The notes under the pieces are model-generated. The model did not search any database. It was given only the letters and a program-made list of their open reading frames with translations, and was not told the DNA's origin. A DNA stretch of 33,204 bases, from NCBI GenBank assembly GCA_020832515.1, contig JAFIEN010000005.1:1-33204 (forward strand), given 5' to 3'. Below are positions 369-18,922 of this stretch, one piece after another. This DNA is from Rubellimicrobium sp. GTDB taxonomy: Bacteria; Pseudomonadota; Alphaproteobacteria; Rhodobacterales; Rhodobacteraceae. The translations under genes and the position numbers were made by a program. Positions within the stretch are counted from its first letter, which is position 1; each line of letters begins with the position of its first letter.

Positions 369-3300
369 ATGAGCAAGCACATGATCGAGGGGCAAGACCC
401 GGAGGCGGTGTCGTCGACCGACATTGCCATCATCGGCATGGCCGCCCATCTGCCGGGTTCCGACACCGTGGATGCCTATTGGCAGAACCTGCGCGACGGC
501 GTGGAATCGATCCGCCACCTGACGCGGGAAAAGCTTCTGGCCGCGGGCGAGGCCGCGCATCTGATCGACCGGCCCGACTACGTTCCCGCTTGCGCCACTC
601 TGGATCGTTTCGCCGATTTCGACGCGGAGTTCTTTGGCTTCTCGCCCAAGGAAGCCGCGATCATGGACCCCCAGCACCGCCAGTTCCTCGAAGTGGCCTG
701 GGAAGCGCTCGAGAACGCGGCCCACCCGCCCGAGCATTTTCCCGGCCCCGTCGGCGTCTTTGCGGGCTGCGGCATGGGCAGCTACTTCTACTTCAACATC
801 TGCTCGAACCGCGACCTTGTGGATGGAACGGGCATGTTCCTCTTGCGCCACACGGGCAACGACAAGGATTTCCTCTCGACCCGGCTGTCGCATATCCTCG
901 ACCTCACCGGGCCCTCGGTCAACGTCCAGACCGCCTGTTCCACCTCGCTTGTCGCGATCCATTACGCCGCGCAATCGCTTCTGAACGGCGAATGCGACAT
1001 GGCGATTGCCGGGGGTGTGACGATCGAACTGCCGCAACTGCGCGGGTATCTCTTCAAGGAGGGCGAGATCCTGTCGCCCGACGGCCATTGCCACGCCTTC
1101 GACCATCGCGCGCAGGGCACCGTCTTCGGCTCGGGCGCAGGCGCTGTGGTGCTGCGGCGGCTGAAGGATGCGCTGGAAGACGGCGATCACATCTGGGCCG
1201 TCATCAAGGGCACCGCAGTCAACAACGATGGCGCGGCCAAGGCGGGCTATCTGGCGCCTTCGGTCGATGGTCAGGCCGCGGCGATTGCCGAAGCGCAGGC
1301 CGTGGCGGGCGTGTCGGCCGACACCGTCGACTACATCGAATGCCACGGCACCGGCACCTATCTGGGCGACCCGATCGAGGTCGCCGCCCTGACCGAGGCC
1401 TTCCGCAAGACGACCGACAGGTCCGATTTCTGCCGCATCGGATCGGTCAAGACCAACATCGGCCATCTGGACACCGCCGCCGGTGTGGCAAGCCTGATCA
1501 AGGCCAGCCTCGCGCTGCATCACCGGCAGATGCCGCCGTCCCTGGGGTTCGAGAAGCCAAACCCCGCCATCGGCTTTGACGGCTCGCCCTTCCGCGTCAA
1601 CGACCGACTGACCGACTGGCCCCAGCGCCCCCACCCGCCCCGCGCGGGCGTCAATTCGCTGGGCGTGGGCGGGACGAATGCCCATGCGGTGCTGGAAGCG
1701 GCGCCTGCGCGCGCAGCATCTGACGAAAGCGACTGGCCCTTCCAGATCCTGCCCCTCTCCGCCCGCTCGCGCGCCGCACTTGACGACGCAAGCGCCCGTC
1801 TGGCCGCGCATCTGACCGCGAACCCTGATCAGCCGCTGGCCGATGTGGCCTACACGCTGAAAGTGGGTCGCCGCGCCTTTGACCGTCGCCGGGTGATCGT
1901 GGCCGAAACGCATGAGGAAGCCGCCCGTCTTCTGACCGAGAACGACCCCCGCCGGGTCTTTACCCATTCGGTGGTGGCCGACGATCCCGGCGTCGTCTTC
2001 ATGTTCCCCGGCGGCGGCGCGCAATATGCCGGCATGGCCCGCGACCTTTACGAGACCGAGCCCGTCTTCCGCGACTGGATGGACCGTGGTCTGGCCGTGC
2101 TGGAACCAAGGCTCGACTACGATATCCGCGCGCTCTGGCTGGGCGAGGATCCCGAGGCGGAGGCGCGGTTGCGCCAGCCTTCGGTGCAACTGCCGCTGAT
2201 CATGATCGTTGAATATGCGCTGGCTCAGCTCTGGATGGCCTGGGGCGTCACGCCTGCCGCGCTGATCGGGCATTCGATGGGCGAGAATACCGCCGCCTGT
2301 GTCGCGGGCGTGATGGGGTTCGAGGATTGCATCGGCCTTGTCCACCTGCGGGGCAAGCTCTTCGACACGGTCGCGCCGGGCGGGATGCTGTCCGTGGCGC
2401 TGCCCGCCGAGGCGCTGCGGGCCTATCTGGGCGACGACCTCGACCTTGCCGCCGTCAATGCGCCGAACCTGTCCGTGGCGACCGGCCCGAACGCGGCGCT
2501 CGACGCGTTGCAGGCGCGGCTGACGGCCGAAGAGATCGACTGCCAGCGCATCCCCATCGACATCGCCGCCCATTCGCGGATGCTGGAAACCATCCTTGGC
2601 GATTTCGGCGCCTACCTCCGCTCGATCAAGCTGAACCCGCCGCAGATCCCCTTCATCTCGAACCGGACCGGGGCCTTCATCACCGATGAACAGGCGACAG
2701 ACCCCGATTACTGGGTCGCCCATCTGCGGAACACGGTGCATTTCGCCGATGGCCTGACCACACTGTCCGCCGATCCGGCGCGGGTCTATATCGAGGTCGG
2801 CCCCGGCAAGGCGCTGTCCTCGCTCGCAGGCCAACACGGCACGATCACCGCCAATCAGGTCATCGGCAGCCTGCGCCACCCGCAGGACGAGATCGCCGAC
2901 GACAAGTATTTCCTTGCCATGCTGGGCCGCCTTTGGGCGACCGGTGGCCGGTTCGACTGGTCCCAGATCTGGGGCGAGGCGCGGCGGAACCGCGTGCCGC
3001 TTCCAACCTATCCGTTCCAGCGCCAGACCTATTTCATCGAACCGGGCAAAGCGGCGGTCGAGGAACAGGCGCAGTGGCTGATGCGCGAGGACGACCCCGC
3101 GCAGTGGGGCTATCGCCCCGCCTGGACCCCCGCCTATGCGCCCTGCGACGTGGATGTGACCGGCGATCTGACGGATGCCGAGCGGCAGGTCTGGGCGATC
3201 TTCGAAGATGACGCCGGGATCGCCGCCCGCGTGGCCGCCCGCCTGCGCGGCGCGGGGCATGTGGTGACGACCATCCGCCCCGGCGATACCTTCGCCCGGC

Positions 3301-6300
3301 TGGACGATGACCGGCTGGTCATCGCGCCCGAACGCGGGCGGGAAAGCTACGACCTCCTGCTGCGCGACCTTGCCCAGCGGGGCCGGACGCCGACCCGCAT
3401 CCTGCACCTCTGGCTGGTGACCGCCGACGAACGCCACCGCCCGGGTTCGAGCTTCTTTCACCGCACGCAGGAACAGGGGTTCTGGAGCCTGTTTTACCTC
3501 GCCCAGGCCATGGCCGAGGAAGGCACCCCGCCCCCGCATCTGACCGTCATCACCTCGGACGCGATGCAGGTGCGGACCGAGGCGCTGCGCTATCCCGACA
3601 AGGCCACCGTCATGGGCCCCGCCCGCGTCATCCCGCGCGAATTTCCGGGCGTGACCTGCGCCGTCCTTGACCTGACGCTGGCCGCCAAGGCCGATCCCGA
3701 ACCGATGGCCCGCGCCGTGCTGGAAGAGGTCCTCGCCCCGCCCGCCAACACCGTCGCCGCGCTGCGCGACCGTCGCTATGCCCTGTCCTGGCGCGCGGCC
3801 CCGCTGGCCGACGCCGCCCTGCCGGTCACCGACGGCACCCCCGTCCTGATCACCGGCGGTTTCGGCGGCATCGGCCAGACGGTGGCCGAGGCGCTGATCC
3901 GGCGGCACGGCTGCCCCATCGTTCTGGTCAGCCGCAGCCCGCTTCCCCCCCGCGAAGACTGGCCCGCCCATATCCGCCGCTCGGCCGATGCCACCGCCCG
4001 ACGCATCCGCGCGGTGCAGCGGCTGGAACAGGCGGGCGGCACCGTCCTCACGCTGACCGCCGATGTCAGCAATGTCGAAGAGATGCGCGCGGCCCTGGCC
4101 GAGGCGGAAGCCGCACTCGGCCCGATCAAGGGCCTTGTCCATGCGGCGGGCGTGATCGACGACGCGCCGATCCTGTCGAAATCTGTCATGGGGATCGAGG
4201 ATGTCTTCACCCCCAAGATCCACGGCACACAGGTCCTTGACGGCCTCTTCCCGGACGGCCGGCTTGACTGGATGGCGCTGTTTTCCTCGACCTCGACGGT
4301 CACGGCGCCTGCCGGGCAGGTCGATTACGTCGCCGCCAACGAATATCTCAACGCCTTCGCCAAGGCCCGCGCAGACGGCAAGACGCGAGTGGTGGCGATC
4401 GATTGGGGCATCTGGTCGGGCGTCGGCATGGCCGCCGAGGCGATGGAGGCCCGCACCGGCCGCACCCCGCCGCCGTCCGAGCCCGTGGACCAACCCCTGA
4501 TCGACGCTGCGGGTTTCGACGGCGAGGGCAACCGCCTGCTGACCGCGACATGGACCCCCGCCACCCGCTGGATGCTGGACGAACACCGCACGCTCCGGGG
4601 CGACGCGCTTCTGCCCGGCACCGGCTATCTGGAACTGGTGGCCGAGGCGCTGGCCGTGCAGGGCGAGGACGGCCCGTTCGAGATCGCCGACCTGAACTTC
4701 CTGCGCCCCCTCCGCACGCCAGATGGCGAGGACACGCAGGTCCGCATCACCCTGCCCCGTAGTGAAACCGGCTATGGCTTCCGCGTGGAAAGCGCCACGC
4801 AGGGCACGGGCTTCGACCTGAATGCGGAAGGCGAGGTGCGACTTCTGCCGCTGTCGCCGCCCCCGCCGCTCGACCTTGCCGCCATCGCCGCGCGTCTGCC
4901 CGAACCCGAGCGCGGCACTTTGCGCTCGCCTCAAGAAGCGCATTTGAAGTTTGGCCCCCGCTGGCGAACCCTTACCGAGACGGCGACAGGAACCGACGAA
5001 GGCCTCGCCCGTCTGCGCCTGCCACCCAAGGGCGCGGAAGGCACCAGCCTTCACCCCGGCCTGATGGACCTTGCCACCGGCTGGGCGATGGGTCTGATCG
5101 CGGGCTATACACCCAGCCACCTCTGGGCCCCGGTCTCCTACGCATCGGTCCGCGTCTTCGGCCCCCTGACCGAGGACGTGATCAGCTGGGTCCGCAACGC
5201 CTCCCCCAACCGGGCCGAGGGGCAGACGGCGACGTTCGACATCACACTGGCCGCCCCCGACGGTCGGGTTCTGGTCGAAGTCACCGGCTTTACCATCCGC
5301 CGCCTCGACGGCGCGCTGTCCTTCGGCGCGGCCCCGCCGGCAAAGCCCACCGGACCCCGTCCGCTATCACCGGCCGAAGAGCGCCTGCGCCACAACCTGA
5401 CCCAGGGCATCCGGCCCGAGGAAGGCGCAGACGCCTTCTTCCGCGCGCTGGGCGCAGGCCAGCCGCAGGTCATCGTCTCGTCCCTGCCGCTGGATGGCCT
5501 CATCGCGCAGGCCGGGACGGAGACGGATGACGCCAGCCGCACCCAGAGCTTCGACCGCCCCCAGATGGAGGCCGATTACGTCGAGCCCGAGGGCGAGATC
5601 GAGACCCGCCTTGCCGCCTTCTGGCAGGATCTGCTGGGTGTCTCCAAGGTCGGCGCGAACGACAGCTTCTTCGATCTTGGCGGTCACTCCCTGATCGCCG
5701 TGCGCCTGTTCGCCATGGTCAAGAAGACCTTCCAGGTCGATTTCCCGATCTCGATCCTGTTCGAGGCGCCCACGATCCGCGCCTGTGCGGCCCTGATCGC
5801 CGAACAGGGCGTTGTCCCCGGCAAGGCCGACAGCCCGACAGCCCCTGCCCGCGCCCAGCGCCGCTTCACCCATCTTGTGCCCATGCATCAGGGCGAAGGC
5901 GGGCCGAAGACGCCCTTCTTCCTTGTCGCGGGCATGTTCGGCAATGTCCTGAACCTGCGCCATCTCGCCCATCTTCTCGGTACCGACCGCCCCTTCTTTG
6001 GCCTGCAGGCGCGGGGCCTTTACGGTGACGCAGACCCCCACCGCGACCTGACCGAGGCCGCAGCCGATTACCTGGCCGAGGTGCGGCAGGTGCAGCCGCA
6101 CGGGCCCTATCTCTTGGGCGGCTTTTCGGGCGGGGGGATCACCGCCTATGACATGGCCCACCAGCTTCGCGCGATGGGGGAAGAGGTCGCCGCCGTCATC
6201 CTGCTTGATACGCCCTTGCCGCAGCGCCGCCCCCTGACCCGGGCCGACCGCGCCGCGATCCAGTGGCATGAGATCAGGGCCAAGGGCCCCGCCTATCCGC

Positions 6301-6707
6301 TGATCTGGGCGCGGAACCGGATCGCCTGGGAAAAGTCCAAACGTCGCAAGCGCGCGCCCGAGGCGCTGGAAACGCCCCAGTTCCAGGACACCGCGATCGA
6401 GGCCGCCTTCCATGAGGCTATCGCCCGCTATCAGGTCCGCCCCTGGGACGGGCCGCTGACCCTGTTCCGCCCGCCGCTTGTGGGCAAGTGGGAGGTCGCC
6501 CCCGGCCGCTGGATCTCGTCCGAGCGGGCCTATGTGCTGCCCGACAACGACTGGACGCAATACGCCCCCGCGCTCGAGGTGTTCGAGGTGCCGGGCGATC
6601 ACGATTCCATGGTTCTGGAACCCAATGTCCGCGTCCTCGCCGCCCGGATGAAGCGCGTGATCGAGGCGGCAGAGCGTGCCCGGCCCGAGAGGCAGGCCGC
6701 CGAATGA
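369..6707 (+). CDS. Type I modular polyketide synthase, KS-AT-KR-DH-ACP-TE
   Basis: KS: VQTACSTSLVAIHYA, ECHGTGTYLGDPIE, VKTNIGHLDTAAG; AT: FMFPGGGAQYAGMARDLY, GHSMGENTAA; KR: PVLITGGFGGIGQTVAE with VDYVAANEYLNAFA; DH-like: MLDEHRTLRGDALLPGTGYLELVAEAL; ACP: DSFFDLGGHSLIAVRLF; TE: GGFSGGGITAYDMA and GDHDSM. Confidence 0.95.
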   Translation: MSKHMIEGQDPEAVSSTDIAIIGMAAHLPGSDTVDAYWQNLRDGVESIRHLTREKLLAAGEAAHLIDRPDYVPACATLDRFADFDAEFFGFSPKEAAIMDPQHRQFLEVAWEALENAAHPPEHFPGPVGVFAGCGMGSYFYFNICSNRDLVDGTGMFLLRHTGNDKDFLSTRLSHILDLTGPSVNVQTACSTSLVAIHYAAQSLLNGECDMAIAGGVTIELPQLRGYLFKEGEILSPDGHCHAFDHRAQGTVFGSGAGAVVLRRLKDALEDGDHIWAVIKGTAVNNDGAAKAGYLAPSVDGQAAAIAEAQAVAGVSADTVDYIECHGTGTYLGDPIEVAALTEAFRKTTDRSDFCRIGSVKTNIGHLDTAAGVASLIKASLALHHRQMPPSLGFEKPNPAIGFDGSPFRVNDRLTDWPQRPHPPRAGVNSLGVGGTNAHAVLEAAPARAASDESDWPFQILPLSARSRAALDDASARLAAHLTANPDQPLADVAYTLKVGRRAFDRRRVIVAETHEEAARLLTENDPRRVFTHSVVADDPGVVFMFPGGGAQYAGMARDLYETEPVFRDWMDRGLAVLEPRLDYDIRALWLGEDPEAEARLRQPSVQLPLIMIVEYALAQLWMAWGVTPAALIGHSMGENTAACVAGVMGFEDCIGLVHLRGKLFDTVAPGGMLSVALPAEALRAYLGDDLDLAAVNAPNLSVATGPNAALDALQARLTAEEIDCQRIPIDIAAHSRMLETILGDFGAYLRSIKLNPPQIPFISNRTGAFITDEQATDPDYWVAHLRNTVHFADGLTTLSADPARVYIEVGPGKALSSLAGQHGTITANQVIGSLRHPQDEIADDKYFLAMLGRLWATGGRFDWSQIWGEARRNRVPLPTYPFQRQTYFIEPGKAAVEEQAQWLMREDDPAQWGYRPAWTPAYAPCDVDVTGDLTDAERQVWAIFEDDAGIAARVAARLRGAGHVVTTIRPGDTFARLDDDRLVIAPERGRESYDLLLRDLAQRGRTPTRILHLWLVTADERHRPGSSFFHRTQEQGFWSLFYLAQAMAEEGTPPPHLTVITSDAMQVRTEALRYPDKATVMGPARVIPREFPGVTCAVLDLTLAAKADPEPMARAVLEEVLAPPANTVAALRDRRYALSWRAAPLADAALPVTDGTPVLITGGFGGIGQTVAEALIRRHGCPIVLVSRSPLPPREDWPAHIRRSADATARRIRAVQRLEQAGGTVLTLTADVSNVEEMRAALAEAEAALGPIKGLVHAAGVIDDAPILSKSVMGIEDVFTPKIHGTQVLDGLFPDGRLDWMALFSSTSTVTAPAGQVDYVAANEYLNAFAKARADGKTRVVAIDWGIWSGVGMAAEAMEARTGRTPPPSEPVDQPLIDAAGFDGEGNRLLTATWTPATRWMLDEHRTLRGDALLPGTGYLELVAEALAVQGEDGPFEIADLNFLRPLRTPDGEDTQVRITLPRSETGYGFRVESATQGTGFDLNAEGEVRLLPLSPPPPLDLAAIAARLPEPERGTLRSPQEAHLKFGPRWRTLTETATGTDEGLARLRLPPKGAEGTSLHPGLMDLATGWAMGLIAGYTPSHLWAPVSYASVRVFGPLTEDVISWVRNASPNRAEGQTATFDITLAAPDGRVLVEVTGFTIRRLDGALSFGAAPPAKPTGPRPLSPAEERLRHNLTQGIRPEEGADAFFRALGAGQPQVIVSSLPLDGLIAQAGTETDDASRTQSFDRPQMEADYVEPEGEIETRLAAFWQDLLGVSKVGANDSFFDLGGHSLIAVRLFAMVKKTFQVDFPISILFEAPTIRACAALIAEQGVVPGKADSPTAPARAQRRFTHLVPMHQGEGGPKTPFFLVAGMFGNVLNLRHLAHLLGTDRPFFGLQARGLYGDADPHRDLTEAAADYLAEVRQVQPHGPYLLGGFSGGGITAYDMAHQLRAMGEEVAAVILLDTPLPQRRPLTRADRAAIQWHEIRAKGPAYPLIWARNRIAWEKSKRRKRAPEALETPQFQDTAIEAAFHEAIARYQVRPWDGPLTLFRPPLVGKWEVAPGRWISSERAYVLPDNDWTQYAPALEVFEVPGDHDSMVLEPNVRVLAARMKRVIEAAERARPERQAAE

Positions 6708-7699
6708 CACCGACGGTCCTGACCATCATCCTCAACTGGCGGACGCCCGGGATGACGCTGCAGGCCGCCGAGGCTGCGCTCCGCGAGATGGAGGGGATCG
6801 CGGGCGAGATCACCATCGTCGACAACGATTCCGGCGACGGCTCGTTCGAAATGTTGACGGAAGAGGTCGCCCGCCGGGGCTGGTCCCGCGTGCGGGTGCT
6901 GCAATCGGGGCGCAACGGGGGCTTCGGGGCGGGCAACAATTTCGGCATCCGCGCGGGCCTGCGGAACGGGGCGCGACCCGACTATGTCTACATCCTCAAT
7001 TCCGACGCCTTTCCCGACACAGGCGCGATCCGCGCGCTGATCGACCATCTGGAGACCCATCCCGACACGGGTTTTGCGGGCAGCTATATCCACGGCCCCG
7101 ACGGCGAGGCGCATCTGACCAGCTTCCGCTTCCCCTCGATCGCCAGCGAATTCGAAGGGGCGGCACGGACCGGCCCGATCAGCCGGATGCTCGGATCGCG
7201 CGCCGTGCCGATCCCGGTGCCGGACCGGACCAGCCGGGTCGACTGGCTGGCCGGGGCAAGCTTGATGATGCGGATGGATGTGCTGGACCGGATCGGGCTG
7301 TTCGACGAAACCTTCTTCCTGTATTTCGAGGAAACCGACCTTTGCCTTCGTGCCGCGAAGGCCGGCTTTCCGACCGACTATGTCCGCGACAGTTCGGTCA
7401 CGCATATCGGTTCGGCCTCGACCGGAATGCAGGAATGGAAGCAGGTTCCCGATTACTGGTTTCACTCGCGTCTTTACTATTTCCGGAAAAACCATGGCTG
7501 GTTCGGCGCTTGGGCGGCAACGAAGGCCCATATCGCCGGCGGCCTCATCCATCGCCTCCGCGCAGGTCTGACCGGCAAACGGCCAGTCGATCCACCCGGT
7601 TTCCTGCGCCGCCTCATTGCCCATGACACCGCAGCCCTACTTCGCCCGACCACACGCCGCGCGGACCCGCCGAGGGCCAGCGACCCGACAGGAGCCTGA
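6704..7699 (+). CDS. Glycosyltransferase family 2, rhamnosyltransferase-like
   Basis: TIILNWRTPGMTLQAAEAAL, TIVDNDSGDGS, NGGFGAGNNFGIR, YILNSDAFPD, GASLMMRMDVLDRIGLFDETFFLYFEETDLCLRAAKAGF; start overlaps the PKS stop (ATGA). Confidence 0.9.
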   Translation: MTPTVLTIILNWRTPGMTLQAAEAALREMEGIAGEITIVDNDSGDGSFEMLTEEVARRGWSRVRVLQSGRNGGFGAGNNFGIRAGLRNGARPDYVYILNSDAFPDTGAIRALIDHLETHPDTGFAGSYIHGPDGEAHLTSFRFPSIASEFEGAARTGPISRMLGSRAVPIPVPDRTSRVDWLAGASLMMRMDVLDRIGLFDETFFLYFEETDLCLRAAKAGFPTDYVRDSSVTHIGSASTGMQEWKQVPDYWFHSRLYYFRKNHGWFGAWAATKAHIAGGLIHRLRAGLTGKRPVDPPGFLRRLIAHDTAALLRPTTRRADPPRASDPTGA

Positions 7700-7703
7700 C
7701 CCG

Positions 7704-10700
7704 ATGCCCCGCTTCTCTGCCGTCCTGATCGGAAACGAGTCCCTTGCCGTGCATTGCGGAACCCTGCTGATCGAGGCGGGCCATTCCTTGCGCGCCGTGG
7801 TCACCCGCAATGCCGAGGTGCGCAACTGGGCCAGCGGGCACGGCCTTCTGGTGATCGAACCCGGCCCCGGACTTGACAGCCGGCTTGCGGGGCTGTCCTT
7901 CGACTGGCTGTTCAGCATCGCCAACCTTGACCTTTTGCCGCAATCCGTCCTGTCGCTTGCTGCCCGGGGCGCAGTCAACTTCCACGACGGGCCGCTGCCG
8001 CGCTATGCGGGGCTGAACGCCCCCGTCTGGGCCATTTTGAACGGCGAGGCACAGCATGGCGTGACCTGGCACCTGATCGGTGGCGGGGTGGACGCGGGGG
8101 ACATCCTCGAACAGCGGATGTTCGACATCTTGCCCACCGATACCGCCCTGACAGTGAACCAGAAATGCTACGCAGCCGCGATCGAGGGTTTTCCTTCGGT
8201 GATCGCCCGGCTCGAGGCCGATGCCCCCGGTGCGATGCAGCAGGACCTGTCCACCCGCAGCACTTTCGCCCGCGACAAGCGGCCCGAAGCAGCGGGGCTG
8301 ATCGACCCGTCCGAGGCGGCGGATCGCATCCTCAGGCTGGTCCGGGCGCTGGATCATGGCGATTATCCCAATCCGCTGACACTGGCCAAGCTTTCCCTGC
8401 CGGATGGCCTTGCCCTTGTCGGCCGGGCCGAGCGCGCCGATGGCACGGGAATACCGGGGACGGTTCTGGCGGTGGATGGGGATAGCCTGACGTTTGCCTG
8501 CGGCGACGGGGCTGTCCGGGTTTCGGATCTGCGGCACCCCCGGGGCGTGCCGCTTCTGCCAAAGCTCGGGCCGGGCGACCGGTTGCCCCCCCGGCCCGAC
8601 GCCGGGGCGCTGGGGGCAGCACTTGGCGCAACGCTGAAGGACGAGGGGTTCTGGCGGTCGCGGCTGTCCGAGGCCATGCCCGCCGCGCTGCCCGATCTGG
8701 GCGGCACGCGCGCCACCGAACCCTTGTCGTGCGACCTGTCGCTGCCGGGGGCCTGTGATCCCGACCTTGCCAAGGCGGCCTTCGCCGCGCTTGTCCTGCG
8801 GATGGCCGAGGGAGAGGTTGCCGATTTCGACCTTGCGCGCCCCACCGATGCCCATGGCATCCAGAGCGACCGTCTTCCTGTCCGGCTTGCCGCCTCTGCC
8901 CCCCTGACGACCTTTGCCGAGGCCCTTTCCGACGCCCGCGTCCGGGCGCCCATGGCAGCCGACCTGCCCGCCCGACTGGGACGTCCTGCCCCCGGCCCGG
9001 CCAAGGTGGCGCTGTCGGACGATCCCGCGACCGGGCTTTTGCCCGGAACCGCCCTCACACTGGCAACCGCACGGGGCCATGCCCGGCTGAGCGGCTGTCC
9101 CGACCGGATCTCTCCTGCCGCCTTCGCCTTGATCGCGGGCCGGGTTCAGCACCTGTTCGACATGCTTGCGACGCTGCCCCCCGGGGCAACCGGGCAGGAC
9201 CTGCCGCTTCTTCCCCCGTCCGAGCGGCAGATGATCCTGACGGACTGGAACGCGACCGAAACCAGCGTCCCCGATGCCTGCCTTCACCATGCCTTCGAAC
9301 GCCAGGCAGCCGGCACCCCCGACGCCCCCGCCCTGACCTTCGAGAACACGACCCTCAGCTATGCCGAGGTCAACGCCCGCGCCAATAGCGCCGCGCATCG
9401 GCTTGTCGCACTTGGCGTCGGGCCCGGCACTCTGGTCGGGCTGCATCTGCGCCGGTCGGCGGAACTGGTGATCGGTGCGCTGGCGATCCTCAAGGCCGGG
9501 GGGGCCTATGTGCCCCTTGATCCGGCCTATCCGGTCGACCGCATCGCCCTTTACATCGAGGATGCAGGCACCTCCGTCATCGTCACCGACAGCGCGCTGG
9601 CCGCAGACCTGCCGCCGCACGGGGCCGCCGTCCTGTTGATGGACGAAGCCACCGAGGCACCCGCCACCAATCCCGAAACCGCCGTGACGCCGGCCGATCT
9701 GGCCTATCTGATCTTCACTTCCGGTTCGACCGGCCGGCCCAAGGGCGTGATGATCGAACATCGCAATGTCGCCAATTTCTTTGCCGGCATGGATGCCCGC
9801 ATCCCGCATGACCCGCCCGGCACATGGCTTGCCGTGACCAGCCTGTCCTTCGACATCTCGGTGCTGGAACTGTTCTGGACGCTGGCGCGCGGGTTCCATG
9901 TCGTCGTCGCGGGGGACGAGAACCGGGCGCTCGTCTCGTCGGGCAACATGCAGATGACCGGGCGCGGGATGGAGTTCAGCCTGTTCTACTGGGGCAATGA
10001 CGATGGCGTGGGGCGCGACAAGTACCGCCTGCTGCTTGATGGCGCGCGCTTTGCCGATGCGCACGGCTTCTGCGCCGTCTGGACGCCCGAGCGGCATTTC
10101 CACGCCTTCGGCGGGCCCTATCCCAATCCTTCGGTCACCGGGGCCGCCGTCGCCGCCGTGACGCGCAACCTTTCCGTCCGCGCCGGAAGCTGCGTCGCTC
10201 CCCTGCACCACACCGCCCGCATCGCCGAGGAATGGGCGGTGATCGACAACCTGACGAACGGACGCGCGGCCCTTGCCATTGCCAGCGGCTGGCAGCCGGA
10301 CGATTTCGTCCTGCGACCCGAGAATGCGCCCCCCCATAACAAGGCCGCAATGTTCACCGCCATCGACCAGCTGCGCCGCCTCTGGGCGGGCGAGGCGGTG
10401 CCTTTCCCGGCGGCGGGCGGCGGGACCTTCGACGTGCTGACGCAGCCCCGACCGGTGTCGAAGCGCCTTCCGATCTGGGTCACCACCGCCGGCAATCCCG
10501 AGACATGGCGCGAGGCGGGGTCGATCGGGGCCAATGTCCTGACCCATCTTCTGGGCCAGAGCATCGACGAGGTGGCGGGAAAGATCGCCATCTATCACGA
10601 TGCCCTGCGCGCGGCGGGCCACGATCCGAAGGATCACAAGGTCACGCTGATGCTGCACAGTTTCCTGTGCGACACCCGCGAAAGAGCGCGGGAGATCGCG

Positions 10701-12293
10701 CGCGAGCCGATGAAATCCTACCTGCGTTCGGCGGCAGGCCTCATCAAGCAATATGCCTGGGCCTTTCCGGCCTTCAAGAAACCAGCAGGTGTCAGCAACC
10801 CGATGCAGCTTGACCTGCGCAGCCTGTCCAAAGACGAGATGGAAGGGATCCTCGAATTCGCGTTCCTGCGCTATTTTGATGATTCCGGCCTTTTCGGGAC
10901 CATTGAAGATGCCCTCATGCGGGTCGAGCAACTCAAGCGCATCGGCGTCGATGAGATCGCTTGCCTGATCGACTATGGCATCAGCGCCGATCAGGTGCTG
11001 GACGGGCTGAAACCACTGGCCACGGTTGTGGCGCAGGCAAACCTTGCCGATACGTTGGCCGAGGACGATTTCTCGCTCGCCGCTCAGATCGTCCGGCATG
11101 GCGTGACGCATCTGCAATGCACGCCCTCGATGGCGCGCATGCTGGCCACCAATGACGAGGCGCGGATCGCACTGGCCGGGGTGAAACAGCTTCTGATCGG
11201 GGGCGAGGCGCTGCCCGGCGCTCTGGTCGCAGATCTGCAACGGGCCACCAGGGCGCGGATCGAGAACATGTACGGCCCGACCGAAACGACGATCTGGTCC
11301 ACCACCCAGCCGGCCACCGGCGATCGGGCGGTCACGGGCATTGGCACGCCGATCGCCAACACGCAGGTCCATGTCCTTGACGAAACCCTTGCGCCCCTGC
11401 CCGTCGGCGTCGCGGGCGAGCTTTTCATCGGCGGGGCGGGCGTCGCGCGCGGGTATTGGCAGCGCCCCGACCTGACGGCCGACAGGTTCATCCCCGATCC
11501 GCTCCGCCCGGGCGGGCGTCTTTACCGGACGGGCGACCTTGTCCGCTGGCGTGCGGATGGAACGCTCGATTTCCTTGGCCGCGCCGATCACCAGATCAAG
11601 CTGCGCGGCTACCGGATCGAACTGGGCGAGATCGAGGCCGCAATGGAGGCCGACCCCGCCGTCACCGCCGCTGTCGTCATCCCGCGTGAGGATGTGCCCG
11701 GGCTGGTGCAGCTTGTGGGCTACTACACCGGCGCGGGCGTGGACGAGGGGGCGCTGCGTGCCGGGCTGCAGGCGCGGCTGCCCGAACACATGGTGCCTGC
11801 GCGCTTCATGGCACTGGCCGCCTTTCCGCTGACGCCCAACAAGAAGGTGGACCGCAAGGCGCTTCCCGCGCCGTCCGACCGTCCCGGGGCCGCGGCACCG
11901 GCCGACCAGCCGAAGACCGGATCAGAAGGCCGGATCGCTGCGATATGGACGCGGATCCTTGGGGTGGCGCAGATCGGCCCGCGCGACAGTTTCTTCGATC
12001 TGGGCGGGCACAGCCTGCTTGCCGTCCAGGCACATCGCGACATCCGCGAGGCCCTGGCCGTGCCCGCGCTGTCGATCACCGACATCTTCCGCTTTCCGAC
12101 GCTGGCCGCACTTGCCGGGCGGGTCGATGCCCTCGTCGGACCGGGCACCCAGGGCACCGAGGCCAGCCGACCCGCGCCAGAGGCCGCCGCAGCCGAAACC
12201 GGAAGCCAACCCCCCTCAGACCGCGCCGCGGCGCGGGCCGATGCGATGGCCCGGCGGCGCGACCTGCGGGCGCGTCGCCGCGGCGCGGGCTGA
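7704..12293 (+). CDS. NRPS-like protein: formyltransferase - degenerate C region - adenylation domain interrupted by a luciferase-like FMN monooxygenase (MupA/Atu3671-type) - PCP
   Basis: N-terminal FMT-like NFHDGPLPRYAGLNAPVWAILNGEAQHGVTWHLIGGGVDAGDI; A motifs LKAGGAYVPLDPAYP, LIFTSGSTGRPKGVMIEH, SFDISVLELFWTL, NMYGPTETTIWST, GELFIGGAGVARGYWQRPDLTADRF, YRTGDLVRW, GRADHQIKLRGYRIELGEIE, NKKVDRKAL; insert MEFSLFYWGNDDGVGRDKYRLLLDGARFADAHGFCAVWTPERHFHAFGGPYPNPSV; PCP DSFFDLGGHSLLAVQAH. Start at MPRFSAVLIGNESLAVHCG chosen over the upstream in-frame ATG at 7617. Confidence 0.93.
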   Translation: MPRFSAVLIGNESLAVHCGTLLIEAGHSLRAVVTRNAEVRNWASGHGLLVIEPGPGLDSRLAGLSFDWLFSIANLDLLPQSVLSLAARGAVNFHDGPLPRYAGLNAPVWAILNGEAQHGVTWHLIGGGVDAGDILEQRMFDILPTDTALTVNQKCYAAAIEGFPSVIARLEADAPGAMQQDLSTRSTFARDKRPEAAGLIDPSEAADRILRLVRALDHGDYPNPLTLAKLSLPDGLALVGRAERADGTGIPGTVLAVDGDSLTFACGDGAVRVSDLRHPRGVPLLPKLGPGDRLPPRPDAGALGAALGATLKDEGFWRSRLSEAMPAALPDLGGTRATEPLSCDLSLPGACDPDLAKAAFAALVLRMAEGEVADFDLARPTDAHGIQSDRLPVRLAASAPLTTFAEALSDARVRAPMAADLPARLGRPAPGPAKVALSDDPATGLLPGTALTLATARGHARLSGCPDRISPAAFALIAGRVQHLFDMLATLPPGATGQDLPLLPPSERQMILTDWNATETSVPDACLHHAFERQAAGTPDAPALTFENTTLSYAEVNARANSAAHRLVALGVGPGTLVGLHLRRSAELVIGALAILKAGGAYVPLDPAYPVDRIALYIEDAGTSVIVTDSALAADLPPHGAAVLLMDEATEAPATNPETAVTPADLAYLIFTSGSTGRPKGVMIEHRNVANFFAGMDARIPHDPPGTWLAVTSLSFDISVLELFWTLARGFHVVVAGDENRALVSSGNMQMTGRGMEFSLFYWGNDDGVGRDKYRLLLDGARFADAHGFCAVWTPERHFHAFGGPYPNPSVTGAAVAAVTRNLSVRAGSCVAPLHHTARIAEEWAVIDNLTNGRAALAIASGWQPDDFVLRPENAPPHNKAAMFTAIDQLRRLWAGEAVPFPAAGGGTFDVLTQPRPVSKRLPIWVTTAGNPETWREAGSIGANVLTHLLGQSIDEVAGKIAIYHDALRAAGHDPKDHKVTLMLHSFLCDTRERAREIAREPMKSYLRSAAGLIKQYAWAFPAFKKPAGVSNPMQLDLRSLSKDEMEGILEFAFLRYFDDSGLFGTIEDALMRVEQLKRIGVDEIACLIDYGISADQVLDGLKPLATVVAQANLADTLAEDDFSLAAQIVRHGVTHLQCTPSMARMLATNDEARIALAGVKQLLIGGEALPGALVADLQRATRARIENMYGPTETTIWSTTQPATGDRAVTGIGTPIANTQVHVLDETLAPLPVGVAGELFIGGAGVARGYWQRPDLTADRFIPDPLRPGGRLYRTGDLVRWRADGTLDFLGRADHQIKLRGYRIELGEIEAAMEADPAVTAAVVIPREDVPGLVQLVGYYTGAGVDEGALRAGLQARLPEHMVPARFMALAAFPLTPNKKVDRKALPAPSDRPGAAAPADQPKTGSEGRIAAIWTRILGVAQIGPRDSFFDLGGHSLLAVQAHRDIREALAVPALSITDIFRFPTLAALAGRVDALVGPGTQGTEASRPAPEAAAAETGSQPPSDRAAARADAMARRRDLRARRRGAG
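9920..11070 (+). other. Luciferase-like monooxygenase domain inserted inside the adenylation domain (between A4 and A5)
   Basis: A4 (SFDISVLELFW...VVAGDEN) is followed by ~380 aa of luciferase-like monooxygenase sequence before the A domain resumes at EDDFSLAAQIVRHGVTHLQCTPSMARML and A5 (NMYGPTETT); boundaries approximate. Confidence 0.85.
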
Positions 12294-12300
12294 CCCTGCA

Positions 12301-12942
12301 ATGCGCGCAGAGCTGCTCGCCGCCGCAAGGGGGCTTGCGGGCGGGCAGGTCACCGTCGCCGGCGGCCCGATCGCGGCGCTCCAGCAACCGCTCCTGCCGG
12401 GCGAGGCCGAGCTTGTCCACCGGGCCGTGCAGTCCCGTCGCGACAGCTTCGCCGCCGGCCGCTGCGCCGCTCGCGCCGCGCTCGCCGCACTTGGCCAACC
12501 GCCCGGCCCGATCCTGCGCGGGGCGCATGGCGCGCCGCTCTGGCCCGAGGGCATCGTCGGCAGCATCACCCACAGCGCCGTCCTTTGCCTTGCCGTGGCT
12601 GCCCGGCGCGCGGACAGTGCGGGGCTTGGGGTCGACATCGAACCGGACCGCGTCCTGCCGCCCGGGATCATCGCCGAGATCGTCACCCCCGAGGACGACG
12701 CGGCACAGAACCCCGCCGCACCCCTGCGCATCTTTTCGGCCAAGGAAGCGGTCTACAAGGCACAATATCCGCTCAGCGGCCGCGTGATCGGCTTTGACGC
12801 CGTCAGCATCCGGTTTTGCCCCTCCGGCTTTGTCGCGACTTGGCGCGAGGACTGCCCACCGTTTCAGAGGGGCCGGACCATCGCGGGACGCCAGACTGTC
12901 ACCTGCGGCCATGTCCTGTCGCTGGTCATCCTGCCGGCGTGA
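12301..12942 (+). CDS. 4'-phosphopantetheinyl transferase (EntD/Sfp superfamily)
   Basis: GSITHSAVLCLAVAA, GLGVDIEPDR, IFSAKEAVYKAQYPL; starts 8 bp after the NRPS stop. Confidence 0.9.
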   Translation: MRAELLAAARGLAGGQVTVAGGPIAALQQPLLPGEAELVHRAVQSRRDSFAAGRCAARAALAALGQPPGPILRGAHGAPLWPEGIVGSITHSAVLCLAVAARRADSAGLGVDIEPDRVLPPGIIAEIVTPEDDAAQNPAAPLRIFSAKEAVYKAQYPLSGRVIGFDAVSIRFCPSGFVATWREDCPPFQRGRTIAGRQTVTCGHVLSLVILPA

Positions 12943-13157
12943 TGCACCCTGCAATCATGGCGAAAAAGTGGCGGGGATTTCGCCCCCGGAAACACCGCGT
13001 TTCGGCAACACCGGGCCAACGCACCGGCTATTGAGTCGCTTGATGGTTGGCAAAGGGTTATTGTGGCAACCGGATGGCCAGTCTGCGGCACGCGGACTGT
13101 CATGCATGCGCCGACAGGACAGATCCGCCGGATACGTCGGCCAGAGGGAGATCGAGG

Positions 13158-14486
13158 ATGGGACCCATCGCTTCGGCATCCGAGCTACGGGACGCGCTGC
13201 GCAGGCGCGCCTGGATCATTGCGCTTGTCCTCTTGACCGGCATGCCCGCGATGCTGTGGATCGTCTGGAACCTGCCCCGGATGTACGAGGCGACCGGCGT
13301 CATCCAGATCGAGGCCCCGGTCATTCCAGATGCCGTGGCGGGGCCGCTGGGCGGCAATTCTGCCAATCACCAGCTTGACCTGATCCAGCAGAAGATGTTC
13401 GCGCGGGACAATATCGTCTCGATCATCGAGACCTTCGACCTGTTCCCGTCCGACATGCCGATGCAGGAACAGATCGGGCTTCTGCGACAGGCGATCACCG
13501 TGGTGCGGCTTGTCGATCCGGCCCAGAGCTGGCGGCCCGACGTTCAGCCGCTGGGCCTGTCGATCACCACCCGGCTTGGAGATCCCGAACAGGTGGCGGA
13601 CGTCACCAATGCCCTGCTCGAAGGTATCATGGACGAGGCAAGGCGCCGGTCCGAAGGTCGGGCGACCGTGACCCTTGACTTCATGACCGCGGAAGAGGCG
13701 CGGGTCGCCTCCGACGTGACCGCGGTCGAGGCCGAGATCGCCAGGTTCCGCGAGGTCAATGTCGATTCGCTGCCCGAGATCACCGGCGAACAAAGATCGC
13801 GGCTGAACACGCTGACCGATGCGCTGATCGGCATCGAACGCGAAATCATCGCGCTTCAGACCGCAACAGACAGACTGCGCGTCGAGGATGCGGCCCGCCA
13901 GCTCGAGCAGTTGACGCAGCAACGGGCCCTGATTGCCGCAAGCGTCGCTGCGACCGAGGCAGCCCTTGCCGCCGCGCCCGCCGTCGAACGCGAGCTGGGC
14001 GCCCTGAACCGCACGCTCGATCTGCTCGAGACGGAGCTTGCGGTCCTGACCGCCCGCCGGACCGAGGCGGCGATGAACCAGTTGATCGAAAGTCAGGATC
14101 AGGCGCAGCGGTTCGAGATCCTGGAACGCGCGCTGGTGCCCGACTATCCGGTCTCGACCAGCCGCAGGAAGCTGGCGCTGGCGGGCGCGGTGGCCGTGAC
14201 GGGACTTGCCTTAGGGGTTGCGCTGCTGATCGAGTTTCTGAGTCCCCGTATCAGGACGGCAGAGCAGATGCAGCGGCATCTGGGGGTCAATCCGGTCATC
14301 GTGATCCCCGTCCTGCGCAGGCCGGGCCTGCTGCGCCGCCGCAATCTGACGCTCGCCGCCTTGCTGCTGGGGCTTGGTGCGGCCATCTGGGGGCTTCTGG
14401 CAACGGGCGGCAGAACGCTGGCCGACCTGATCGGATCGCTGATGCCACGTCAGGCGGGCCCCGCGCGAAACGTTCCGGGGGAATGA
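13158..14486 (+). CDS. Wzz/GumC-type polysaccharide chain-length determinant / co-polymerase, without a fused kinase domain
   Basis: N-terminal TM (WIIALVLLTGMPAMLWIVWNLPRMYEATGVIQIEAPVI), long coiled coil, C-terminal PVSTSRRKLALAGAVAVTGLALGVALLIEFLSPRIRTAEQM. Confidence 0.85.
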   Translation: MGPIASASELRDALRRRAWIIALVLLTGMPAMLWIVWNLPRMYEATGVIQIEAPVIPDAVAGPLGGNSANHQLDLIQQKMFARDNIVSIIETFDLFPSDMPMQEQIGLLRQAITVVRLVDPAQSWRPDVQPLGLSITTRLGDPEQVADVTNALLEGIMDEARRRSEGRATVTLDFMTAEEARVASDVTAVEAEIARFREVNVDSLPEITGEQRSRLNTLTDALIGIEREIIALQTATDRLRVEDAARQLEQLTQQRALIAASVAATEAALAAAPAVERELGALNRTLDLLETELAVLTARRTEAAMNQLIESQDQAQRFEILERALVPDYPVSTSRRKLALAGAVAVTGLALGVALLIEFLSPRIRTAEQMQRHLGVNPVIVIPVLRRPGLLRRRNLTLAALLLGLGAAIWGLLATGGRTLADLIGSLMPRQAGPARNVPGE

Positions 14487-14490
14487 CCCG

Positions 14491-15510
14491 TCAGTAAGCG
14501 TATTCGGCGATACTGACCCCATCGGCCTTGTTCAGGATCACGCCGACGACGGGTTTGTCCTCTCCGATCCGGCGGACCGTCTCCTTCATCTCGCGCGGCG
14601 TGGTCAGGCCACCGCCGGCGACAAGAAGCACACAATCCATATGCGGACGAAAGGCGATCACATCGTCCTGCGCCAAAGCGGGCGGCAGGTCATGGAGGAT
14701 CACATCCGGGCGCAGATCCTTTTCCATCCGTTCAAGCACCCGTGCGGTGCGGTCTTCTTGAAACAGCTCGGCCGCATAGGCCTCGGCCCGATGGTTCAGG
14801 CCAAGCGCGAGGTTTGCACCGATCCTGAGATCGTTCGGCCCAACCTTCCGCAGGATCGCCTCGGCCGGGATCTCTTCACGCAGGAAATCGCCCATCGTGC
14901 GGTCGACCTTCAGCCCTAGGTAACCGGCCAGCGAAGGGTTGCGCAGATCCATGTCCATCAGGATCGTACGGCAATTGTCATAGCGCGACAGGGCGATCGC
15001 AAGGTTGATTGCGGTGAAGGTCTTGCCGCAGCCCTTGGTGGGCGAGGTGATGCCGACCCGTCTCCAGCCCTTTTCGGCAAGCGCCTGCAAAAGTCGGCTG
15101 CGCAGGACGTCGAAGGCCCCATGCGCCGGATCGGTGCGCGCGGCGGTGATGACAAGGTTGCGCGCAAGCACGACCGGATCGACCGAAACGGACCCGAGGC
15201 CACCCCAAAGATCGACGATCCGGGGCAGATCGCCGGCGGTTTGCCCCGGCGATTGCGCCGAGGCCATCCTGGTCGATGTGGCCCCTGCATCTGCGGGCCG
15301 ATCCGGCATTGCCTCCGAACCGGGGGATCGGGCAGGTGGACGGGCACTGTCCTGCCGGGTGGCGGACCGCGCCTGTATCTTGGCCGGGGGACTTGCGACC
15401 TGCCCGTCCTCGCCGGACTCCTCAAGCCGCTCGATCTCGCTCAGAAGGCGCGCGCGCGTTCTGGGGTCAAGCCGTGACGGCTGTGGTTTGCGGTCCCGAG
15501 GGTCGTTCAT
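14491..15510 (-). CDS. CpsD/CapB-like ATPase (BY-kinase family or ParA-like), exopolysaccharide-associated
   Basis: P-loop ITSPTKGCGKTFTAINLAIALSRYDNCRTILMDMDLRNPSLAGYLGLK; Walker-B-like DVILHDLPPALAQDD; start chosen at MNDPRDRKPQPSRLD. Confidence 0.85.
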   Translation of the reverse strand: MNDPRDRKPQPSRLDPRTRARLLSEIERLEESGEDGQVASPPAKIQARSATRQDSARPPARSPGSEAMPDRPADAGATSTRMASAQSPGQTAGDLPRIVDLWGGLGSVSVDPVVLARNLVITAARTDPAHGAFDVLRSRLLQALAEKGWRRVGITSPTKGCGKTFTAINLAIALSRYDNCRTILMDMDLRNPSLAGYLGLKVDRTMGDFLREEIPAEAILRKVGPNDLRIGANLALGLNHRAEAYAAELFQEDRTARVLERMEKDLRPDVILHDLPPALAQDDVIAFRPHMDCVLLVAGGGLTTPREMKETVRRIGEDKPVVGVILNKADGVSIAEYAY

Positions 15511-15655
15511 CTTCCGCTTTCTGGCCGGGCAAAGGTGTGCTCCTGCATGGTCTAGACACGACAATCTTGGCCAAATTACGCCATTGGTTCTGCAGGGCGG
15601 CATCGGCCGGCCCCTCGGTTCCTGCACATACGGGCCGTTCGCCCCCCCTGTTGCG

Positions 15656-16624
15656 TCACTTGTACTCGATCAGGCGCCGTTCAAGGCCGAACAGGCGCCG
15701 GATGTGAAAGCGCAGCATGCCCTGCACGTTCGGAAGCTTCGACAAGGTCAGGAATCCGGCCTGAAACAGGGCCTGCCGTGCCGCCATGCCCTGTTCGTGC
15801 AGACCTTTCGCCGTCCGCGCCCATGAGGCGGCATAGCCCAGCGCGACCAGAGCCACGATCCACGGCGCGCCGCCCGCCAGCGCAACCAGCGCGACAAGCG
15901 GCAATAGCCCGCCATAGACCCAGGCCCGCAGACACTCCTTGCGGAAATGGTCCGGCACCATGCCGCCCACTTCGGCAAAACCATGGCCGGCCCGTTCGGC
16001 CCGCCGCCACCATTCGGACAGCCGTGTCATGGCGATATCGTGATGCGTCATCACCACGGGCAGGCGGTGCACGCCATGGCCATGCGCGGCCACACGAAGG
16101 CAGAATTCCTCGTCCTCGGAACAGATGATCCCACCGTCGAAACCACCGAGCGCCGCAAACACATCGGCCCGCACCATCATGTCGCCGCCGCAGGCGCGGA
16201 TATCGCCCGCGGGGCGGTGCCATTCCCATTCGGCCATCCGGTGAAAGATGTTGCGCTCGGGCGCGATCTCGGTCCGCCAGCCGGTCACGATGCCAAGCTC
16301 GGGCCGCTCGGCCAGCGTACGGGCGGCGGTGGCGATCCAGCCGGGCGCGATCCGGCAATCGCCGTCCACGAACTGCACCGCATCCAGCGGCCCGCCCTCG
16401 GCCAGCGCCGCAAAGCCCGCATTACGCGCGCGCGCTGCGGTGAAAGGCCGGTCGCGGTCAAGCTCGACCACCCTGACCCCCATCGTGCGGGCCATCGCGA
16501 CGCTGTCGTCGGTCGAGCCGGAATCGACATAGACGATCGGCTCGACCTCGCCCCTCAGGCTTTCAAGACAGGCCCGCAGCCTTGCCCCTTCGTTCCGGCC
16601 GATGGCAACGGCACCGATCTTCAT
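15656..16624 (-). CDS. Glycosyltransferase family 2
   Basis: MKIGAVAIGRNEGARLRACLESLRGEVEPIVYVDSGSTDDSVAMARTMGVRVVELD, FTAARARNAGFAAL, VQFVDGDCRIAPGW, ICSEDEEFCLR. Confidence 0.9.
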   Translation of the reverse strand: MKIGAVAIGRNEGARLRACLESLRGEVEPIVYVDSGSTDDSVAMARTMGVRVVELDRDRPFTAARARNAGFAALAEGGPLDAVQFVDGDCRIAPGWIATAARTLAERPELGIVTGWRTEIAPERNIFHRMAEWEWHRPAGDIRACGGDMMVRADVFAALGGFDGGIICSEDEEFCLRVAAHGHGVHRLPVVMTHHDIAMTRLSEWWRRAERAGHGFAEVGGMVPDHFRKECLRAWVYGGLLPLVALVALAGGAPWIVALVALGYAASWARTAKGLHEQGMAARQALFQAGFLTLSKLPNVQGMLRFHIRRLFGLERRLIEYK

Positions 16625-17889
16625 GAGGGCCGCACCCCTGGCCGCACCCCGCCCGCGCGGACCGACAGGATCAGCACCGCCAGCCAGGCCGCCTCGGTCG
16701 CTGCATCGAAATCGCGTTCGACACGGGCGCGGCCAGCCTCGCCCATGCGGCGGGCGGTGGCGGGGCTTCCGGTCACCTCGAGAAGCGCCAGCGCCAGCGC
16801 CTCGGCATTGCCGGGCGGGACCAGCCGCCCGCTGACGCCGTCCTCGACCAGGTCCGGGACACCGTCGACCCGCACCGCCACCACCGGCAGCCGCGCGGCC
16901 ATCGCCTCGACCATAGGCATAGACAGGCCCCCCGTCAGGCCCGGCAGGACAAAGGCATCGGCCCCGGCCAGCAGCGCAGGCAGATCCGCGTCGGACCTGT
17001 AACCGGCGAAGGTGACATCCACCCCCAGAGCCTGCGCAAGCGCCTCGAGCCTGGCCCGCTCCGACCCCTCGCCCACCAGCGTCAGCCGCAGCGGGGCGCG
17101 CGCGCTCCGGATGGCGGCCAGCGCCTCGATCAGGTCCGTCAGGCCGTGGGCGGGCATCAGCCGCCCGACATGGACCAGCCCGCCCGCCCCCCGCCGAGGG
17201 GCAGGCACGTGCCGGGCGGGATCGACGCCGGGATGGACGATATGCAGCCTGTCCCAATGCGCCGCATCCGAAAACAGCATCGCCTGCGACCGGGCGGCAT
17301 GGCTGGCGCAGGCAACAAAGGCGGCACGGGCAATCTTTTCGTCCAGACGCCAGCGGGCGGGTGCGGTGCGGGTGTCGGGGCCGTCAAGCGCAAGGCTGAA
17401 CGGAATGCCCGCCATCCGGGCGGCCAGCATCGCGATGGTGCCGCCTTCGGCCGCGTCATGGCTTTGCAGATGGACCGCACCGCGCGCGGCCAGCCAATCC
17501 GCCAGCACCACCGCCCGCAGCAGGCACCCCAGGTTGTAAAGCCGCCCGCGCATCCCGCCCGGCCCGGTCCGCCAGGCAAGGGCCAGCGCGCCCAGCCACC
17601 CCCTGAGATTGCCCAGCGCGCGGCGATGCGCGCGGAGCAGACAACGTGGGCGGCGCGCGGCCTCGCGCAGGTGAAAGGTCCCGGCGGCGGCCTCTGCCAG
17701 CCCCGGCTCGGCCAGATGTTCGGGGCCTGTGCGGCGAAGCGTACAGGTCTCGACCGCAAGGCCAAGCGCGCGCAGGGCCGCGACCTCGCGCAGAATGAAC
17801 AACTCGTCCAGGCGGGGGTATTCCCCGGCCAGACAGACGAGCGGCCCCGGAAGGGCATCCGTGGCGGCGCCGGTCATGTTCCCCGCCAT
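16621..17889 (-). CDS. Glycosyltransferase family 4
   Basis: LVHVGRLMPAHGLTDLIEALA, LRLTLVGEGSERARLEALAQALGVDVTFAGYRSDADLPALLAGADAFVLPGLTGGLSMPMVEAMAARLPVVAVRVDGVPDLVEDGVSGRLVPPG; 4-bp overlap with the downstream GT2. Confidence 0.9.
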   Translation of the reverse strand: MAGNMTGAATDALPGPLVCLAGEYPRLDELFILREVAALRALGLAVETCTLRRTGPEHLAEPGLAEAAAGTFHLREAARRPRCLLRAHRRALGNLRGWLGALALAWRTGPGGMRGRLYNLGCLLRAVVLADWLAARGAVHLQSHDAAEGGTIAMLAARMAGIPFSLALDGPDTRTAPARWRLDEKIARAAFVACASHAARSQAMLFSDAAHWDRLHIVHPGVDPARHVPAPRRGAGGLVHVGRLMPAHGLTDLIEALAAIRSARAPLRLTLVGEGSERARLEALAQALGVDVTFAGYRSDADLPALLAGADAFVLPGLTGGLSMPMVEAMAARLPVVAVRVDGVPDLVEDGVSGRLVPPGNAEALALALLEVTGSPATARRMGEAGRARVERDFDAATEAAWLAVLILSVRAGGVRPGVRPS

Positions 17890-18160
17890 TCCGGCAGACC
17901 GCCCAAGCCGACCGGGGGGATCAGCAGGGCCATGGCATCGGCTCCATCGGCGCGGCGGGCCGGGTCGCGGTCATGCGCGCCGATCAAACTCACCCCACCC
18001 ATGCGCTGCCCTCGTTCAAGGTCATGCCCTCTCATCCCCGGACCACAAGAGGATGGCAACAGTTTGTCGCCCATGCACGTCTTTCCTTGCCCCCCGCCGC
18101 GCGGCAAGGAAAGGTCGGGCAACGAAGCGGCCCACATGGCCGGTGCAGAAGAGGCGACAG

Positions 18161-18922
18161 GTGCAGTTCCAGACCGGACCAGCGGATGACCGCGCCTCGA
18201 TCACCGTGACCTGCCCCACGCGCACGGGCCTTCTGTCCGAGGTCGACCGGCGGCTGCGCGCGGGCGAGGGGTTCGCACTGGCCACGCTGAACCTGGACCA
18301 TCTGGTCAAGCTTGACGGATCGGCCGCTTTCCGGCGCGCCTATCTGGCGCAGGATCTGGTGACGGCCGACGGCAATCCCGTCACCTGGATGGCCCGTGCC
18401 GCCGGACAGCGGGTCGAGCTTCTGCCCGGTGCGGACCTTGTCCTGCCGCTGGCCCGGCTGGCGGCAGAGGCGGGGCGCAAGGTCGCGCTGGTCGGCACGA
18501 CCGACGACAGCCTTGCCCGCGCGGCAAAGGCCCTGCGGCAGGCGGTGCCGGGGCTGCAGATCGCGCATCTGCACGCCCCGCCGATGGGCTTCGACCCGGA
18601 CAGCGAAAAGGCCGAGGCGCTGCTGACGGGGCTCGGGGCTGCGGGGATCGGGCTGTGCTACCTCGCGCTGGGTGCGCCCAAGCAGGAGATCCTTGCCGCA
18701 CGCGGACGCCTGCTTGCGCCGGGGGTGGGCTTTGCCAGCATCGGGGCGGGGCTCGATTTCCTGTCGGGCCACCAGCGACGCGCGCCGCTCTGGGTGCGGC
18801 GGATGCAGATGGAATGGCTCTGGCGCGCCGCCACCCAGCCCCGCCGCCTTGCGATGCGCTACCTGCGGGCGGGGCTGGTGTTGCCGGGGCATATGCTGCG
18901 GGCGTGGCGGCAGAGGGGGTAG
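18161..18922 (+). CDS. WecG/TagA/CpsF family (GT26) glycosyltransferase; GTG start inferred
   Basis: GEGFALATLNLDHLVKL, VTADGNPVTWMAR, ELLPGADLVLPLARLAAEAGRKVALVGTTDDS, CYLALGAPKQEILAARGRLLAPGVGFASIGAGLDFLSGHQRRAPLWVRRMQMEWLWRA; preceded by AAGAGGCGACAG. Confidence 0.85.
   Translation: MQFQTGPADDRASITVTCPTRTGLLSEVDRRLRAGEGFALATLNLDHLVKLDGSAAFRRAYLAQDLVTADGNPVTWMARAAGQRVELLPGADLVLPLARLAAEAGRKVALVGTTDDSLARAAKALRQAVPGLQIAHLHAPPMGFDPDSEKAEALLTGLGAAGIGLCYLALGAPKQEILAARGRLLAPGVGFASIGAGLDFLSGHQRRAPLWVRRMQMEWLWRAATQPRRLAMRYLRAGLVLPGHMLRAWRQRG

Follow-up and report, generated by a model that had tools for sequence, protein, structure and literature searches.

In modules of the MtaG/MelG type, a flavin-dependent monooxygenase (MOX) lies between the core motifs A4 and A5 of a glycine adenylation (A) domain (PMC10204066, PMC11342130). 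In the myxothiazol, melithiazol, and corallorazine-like pathways, the MOX of the glycine A domains hydroxylates the alpha-carbon, after which the N–C bond breaks and glyoxylate is left bound to the carrier protein (T) (PMC11342130), whereas in solanimycin B the hydroxyglycine is retained after the MOX step (PMC10204066). The same monooxygenase family (TIGR04020) includes MupA, the OX domain of PuwE, and others; their substrates are polyketide-type chains, on which they act in trans or as a domain of their own rather than from inside an A domain for glycine. MupA hydroxylates the alpha position of a carrier-bound thioester (PMC10952193), and the flavin monooxygenase FbnE of the fabrubactin pathway has been proposed to form alpha-hydroxycarboxylates (PMC12971057). 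The MtaG and MelG modules open with a condensation (C) domain, close with a TE, and end their chains. The corallorazine-like (crz) clusters, with the MOx in A2, and solanimycin SolF, in which the MOX lies between a8 and a9, are elongation modules with C domains. A module led by a formyltransferase (F) is found in the linear gramicidin synthetase LgrA, whose initiation module (F-A-T) loads valine, has neither a MOX nor a half C domain, and hands on to a C domain, not to a KS.

The DNA analyzed herein (the window) is a stretch of 33,204 nucleotides of a Rubellimicrobium sp. contig, from a draft genome that is 88% complete and divided into 461 contigs. Its features are listed in Table 1. The central one is an NRPS without internal stops, and thus one continuous protein, in which F and half of a C domain (dC) precede an A domain interrupted by a MOX. 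Compared with MtaG/MelG, as known from their published descriptions, the insertion site and the glycine code are the same, and probably also the chemistry, so that to this extent the parallel drawn in the first-pass annotation stands. The build of the module is different: it opens with F and dC, lacks a TE of its own, as the protein stops after T by both ORF and Pfam analysis, and appears to feed a PKS. For this reason, the release of a terminal amide cannot be transferred from MtaG/MelG to this NRPS. Assignment to their terminal-amide class was rejected, since two of its defining features, the complete upstream C domain and the TE after T, are missing. The crz clusters and SolF are similar in having a MOX within a glycine A domain and alpha-hydroxyglycine chemistry, while LgrA, which is the best PDB sequence match by score, likewise has F at the N terminus of an A-T module; F of the NRPS retains its catalytic residues. 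The MOX insertion itself is already known, and what is new is its F-initiated, PKS-coupled, exopolysaccharide-linked version; the interval covered by the first-pass annotation did not extend to F, dC, the partner PKS, or the exopolysaccharide genes around them. MOX-interrupted glycine domains are known to end chains, and the same cassette here appears to start one, with a formyl cap replacing the peptide, which would be both a new use of the cassette and a new polyketide starter unit.

Table 1. Features of the window, in order of position
Feature	Position	Strand	Basis
Wzx-type flippase, C-terminal end, cut by contig start	1..270	+	Frame 1 likeness to the relatives' conserved flippase family, by eye
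Partner PKS, KS-AT-KR-DH-CP-TE	369..6707	+	Pfam
Family 2 glycosyltransferase GT2a, between PKS and NRPS	6704..7699	+	PF00535; in 83 loci
Predicted NRPS initiation module F-dC-A(MOX)-T, 1529 aa	7704..12293	+	Single open frame; start codon set by alignment
Formyltransferase (F) domain, catalytic N-x-H...D (NFH; GGVDAGD)	7704..8600	+	PF00551 E 2.3e-16, PF02911
dC, C-terminal lobe of condensation domain, HHxxxDG lobe missing	8601..9200	+	hhalign vs full C domains
Adenylation domain part 1, through A4	9270..9944	+	PF00501 profile positions 1-242
Insert between A4 and A5	9945..11063 (about)	+	Alignment gap vs uninterrupted A domains
MOX, MupA/Atu3671-family FMN-dependent monooxygenase	9966..11018	+	TIGR04020; PuwE OX 6ket
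Adenylation domain part 2 (A5-A10)	11064..11873	+	PF00501 second stretch; best PDB match DhbF 5u89
Carrier protein (T), DSFFDLGGHSLLAVQ	11916..12140	+	PF00550; Ser conserved among relatives
4'-Phosphopantetheinyl transferase	12301..12942	+	4PPT_N, ACPS; downstream of NRPS in ~70 loci
Polysaccharide chain-length determinant (Wzz-like)	13047..14486	+	TIGR03007 E 6e-35, below cut-off
Polysaccharide tyrosine autokinase-like ATPase	14491..15627	-	TIGR03018 E 1.8e-26, below cut-off
Two glycosyltransferases, GT2b and EpsE-like GT4	15656..17889	-	PF00535; PF00534 and EpsE-like
WecG/TagA/CpsF glycosyltransferase	17729..18922	+	PF03808 E 1e-41

The first-pass annotation had described a complete luciferase-like monooxygenase of about 380 aa between A4 and A5, with the A-domain sequence resuming after it, and both points were borne out. 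By Pfam, an AMP-binding domain occurs in two stretches separated by Bac_luciferase, and the two halves meet without overlap, at PF00501 positions 1-242 and then 245-384. Between the flanking alignments there are 391 residues in the NRPS and 12 in LgrA module 2, a net gain of some 380 aa. Read by eye in the translation, A4 (SFDISVLELFW) ends at about 9880 and A5 (ENMYGPTETT) starts at about 11265; the interval first given for the insert, 9920-11070, was right within a few codons. The TIGR04020 model matches at 9975-11027 over positions 1-340 of 341, scoring 472 bits where the curated cut-off is 244.45, and the PuwE OX domain (6ket) matches the MOX in both sequence (E 2.5e-97) and fold (TMt 0.90). 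By its profile score and luciferase-like fold, the MOX belongs to the TIGR04020 MupA/Atu3671 family. Structure prediction, one of the checks suggested at the outset together with the TIGR04020 and AMP-binding profiles, gave folded A and MOX domains that both match solved structures. The A-MOX-A-T model, built with 35 relatives, has a mean pLDDT of 82 and a pTM of 0.58, low enough to make the placement of the domains relative to each other uncertain. Among solved structures, DhbF (5u89) resembles it most, with other NRPS A domains next. As modeled, the A domain is of the interrupted A4-A5 type, with both halves rejoining the fold, and its core motifs are intact in the alignment of relatives. 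The protein is, in this respect, a compact natural case of the sites at which an A domain can accommodate another domain.

The architecture with the MOX insert recurs in about 114 loci, and the insert is present in all 114 aligned copies; chance or misassembly as its origin is ruled out by this recurrence. Full-length relatives occur across the Rhodobacteraceae and in Hydrogenophaga, Rhizobium, Shinella, and Aminobacter, although the 80 genome loci were gathered with a full-length query, which favors full-length relatives, so that the lack of truncated ones means little.

The ten-residue specificity code, which spans both A halves, reads DILQLGMIWK, with its positions placed from the motifs and the middle part supported by the DhbF alignment. 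A survey from 2025 lists four glycine-activating A domains with a MOX, unnamed in its main text, and all carry this same code (PMC12283262). For this reason, glycine is very probably the substrate. All the relatives conform to DILQ[M/L/F/Y/I/A]GM[I/V]WK, the last position being gapped in one copy, and the MOX-bearing A domains of Deinococcus, Nostoc, Streptomyces, and Burkholderia have an identical or almost identical code behind either F or C. A text search of the open-licence literature for the code variant DILQLGLIWK gave no match.

At the start of the protein, the catalytic triad of F (N-x-H...D) is conserved across the relatives, and the model of the domain (pLDDT 94.5) has Fmt/ArnA as its top PDB folds, with E about 5e-23. 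The roughly 200 residues between F and the A domain align by hhalign with positions 193-437 of 466 of full C domains (probability 96.6, E 5e-10). The HHxxxDG motif was absent in the F-type relatives and present in the C-type comparators, and F appears to have replaced the lobe that carries this motif. Because dC is without the catalytic lobe, no upstream condensation onto glycine would be possible, and F is the sole N-acylating domain. The fusion of F to the module in cis is seen in nearly all relatives, an exception being Deinococcus actinosclerus. There, a stand-alone formyltransferase gene (L139:7770-8696) precedes the NRPS gene in a plasmid-borne polysaccharide locus.

The catalytic motifs of the partner PKS are conserved in 81 proteins. 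In 82 loci, PKS, GT2a, and NRPS follow one another in this order on one strand, and 69 of these have the phosphopantetheinyl transferase downstream. Because the NRPS has neither a whole C domain nor a TE, and the PKS opens with a KS and closes with a TE, we take NRPS to PKS as the working order, the domain content suggesting it as the arrangement without a missing part. The motifs of the AT leave its specificity ambiguous, since GHSMG differs from the GHSQG of methylmalonyl-type AT domains, and AAHS is unusual. In Aliiroseovarius (L117:19456-28740), the PKS has an extra C-A-T before its TE, so that this PKS family can extend its product by an amino acid.

We favor, with moderate confidence, the reading that the module makes an oxidized glycine starter unit for the PKS through loading, N-formylation, alpha-hydroxylation, and handover. 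The A domain would activate glycine and transfer it to T, and F would formylate its amine with 10-formyl-THF as the donor. The MOX would then, with reduced FMN and O2, place a hydroxyl group on the alpha-carbon of the N-formylglycyl thioester on T; that it acts in this way on the carrier-bound amino acid, as the first-pass annotation had proposed, is suggested by analogy with the literature role of MOX in glycine A domains. Either N-formyl-alpha-hydroxyglycyl-S-T would be retained, or the N–C bond would be cleaved to give formamide and glyoxylyl-S-T, and both outcomes fit the sequence. The KS of the PKS would accept the acyl group, one malonyl-type unit would be added and then reduced and dehydrated (KR, DH), and the TE would free a small acyl product of about C4. 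The order of the steps after loading, the fate of the hydroxylated intermediate, and the product and its use are thus what we infer from the domains and their setting. As no flavin reductase gene is annotated in the operon, the reduced FMN must be supplied from elsewhere.

Given the location of the operon among exopolysaccharide genes, its product is probably placed on the polysaccharide or made beside it. At least one exopolysaccharide gene, besides the glycosyltransferase of the operon, lies near 79 of the 85 external loci, and at least three lie near 62 of them; three of the six loci without such genes are on contigs of about 10 kb. A small control of 20 arbitrarily chosen stretches of 20 kb, taken from eight genomes in the same family, contained none. 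On the annotated plasmids of Ruegeria, Paracoccus, Aminobacter, and Shinella, the operon is likewise found among exopolysaccharide genes, and a polysaccharide setting is also seen in Deinococcus (L139) and in two Rhizobiales loci (L116 and L147). A TIGR04020 match above the cut-off is present in 71 of 199 Rhodobacteraceae genomes, nearly all of differing genera. Within the open-licence literature, no paper was found that joins this operon architecture, or the enzyme type, with exopolysaccharide loci. Rhodobacteraceae with the operon probably make an unusual small building block within their exopolysaccharide clusters, and since the operon is common in the polysaccharide loci of the family, it ties assembly-line chemistry to surface polysaccharide. 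More tentatively, the operon may be a fixed part of the exopolysaccharide pathway in about one third of Rhodobacteraceae genera, making from glycine and malonate a C4 acyl group (formamido-hydroxy or 4-oxo) that decorates the polysaccharide. If so, an assembly-line polyketide would serve as a modification of a cell-surface sugar.

It is also conceivable, though rather unlikely, that the operon belongs to the usual kind of small-molecule cluster and lies among exopolysaccharide genes only incidentally, which would be compatible with the chemistry of an oxidized glycine starter. Consistent with this, no acyltransferase that could attach the product to a sugar was present among the conserved neighbor genes. 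Against an incidental location, however, stand the counts above (79 of 85 loci against none of 20 controls), the recurrence of the polysaccharide setting in Deinococcus and the Rhizobiales, and the glycosyltransferase gene found in 83 loci between the other two genes of the operon. A siderophore pathway of the fabrubactin kind was rejected, as the window and the neighborhoods read hold no metallophore-type genes, and these neighborhoods are polysaccharide loci. FbnE, which we take to be a member of the MupA/Atu3671 family or Atu3671 itself, belongs to such a siderophore pathway, and the Agrobacterium homolog examined (L144) is a stand-alone protein.

Some other genes of these loci may be mentioned. 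In the window, a GMC oxidoreductase and SDR pair (19780-22099, minus strand) adjoins the exopolysaccharide genes, and the same pair is present in 11 loci, including L113 and L115. The exopolysaccharide locus of Paracoccus marcusii has, besides the NRPS gene, another gene (L115:922-4800) annotated with an amino acid adenylation domain, and the UbiA, GtrA, FAD oxidoreductase, and SDR genes of Ruegeria sp. SCSIO 43209 (L114:28521-32435) resemble a polyprenyl-phosphate pentose set. The gene for 1-deoxyxylulose-5-phosphate synthase (29749-31674, minus strand) appears to be divided between two frames, one with DXP_synthase_N and the other with the Transket_pyr/C parts, probably because of a frameshift or an assembly error of the draft contig.

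With regard to the chemistry, the MOX might instead hydroxylate glycyl-T directly, with loss of ammonia giving glyoxylyl-T, while F serves another substrate, such as an amino sugar of the polysaccharide. The Fmt/ArnA-type fold also covers the sugar formyltransferases ArnA, WbkC, and QdtF; F could act on an amino sugar as ArnA does, since the fold fits either substrate, and the locus makes a polysaccharide. The glyoxylate left on T by glycine MOX modules (PMC11342130) points in the same direction. We nevertheless consider this improbable, because nearly all relatives carry F on one polypeptide with the rest of the module, and because in the described MOX-glycine cases a C domain first acylates the amine, and it is the site of the lost C lobe that F occupies.

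The reverse order of the two enzymes, in which the PKS would act first, its acyl chain would be joined to glycine, and the MOX would release a terminal amide as in MtaG/MelG, appears very unlikely. In the window, the PKS gene does come first, and the glycine code and the insertion site match those of MOX modules. There is, however, no intact C domain to join the chain to glycine, the only TE is that of the PKS, and in three other lineages, Methylobacterium (L142), Deinococcus (L139), and Aliiroseovarius (L117), the NRPS gene is directly upstream of the PKS gene.

The MOX is the best-conserved domain of the NRPS protein: among the 114 aligned copies, 59% of its columns are more than 90% conserved, against 37% and 42% in the two A halves. 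That the MOX is structural or inactive, so that the module just hands N-formylglycine to the PKS, would agree with an operon lacking a dedicated flavin reductase, but this conservation, and the motifs shared with PuwE that are kept in all the full-length family members collected, make it highly improbable. On a plasmid of Paracoccus marcusii (NZ_CP143307.1, 248020-252187), the NRPS copy is fragmented, with seven pieces matching the whole protein and five matching the MOX, and it is likely a pseudogene or poor sequence. In a distant genome, the MOX is found on two contigs (L134 and L138) near the end of the A domain, in an arrangement of the A8-A9 type as in SolF.
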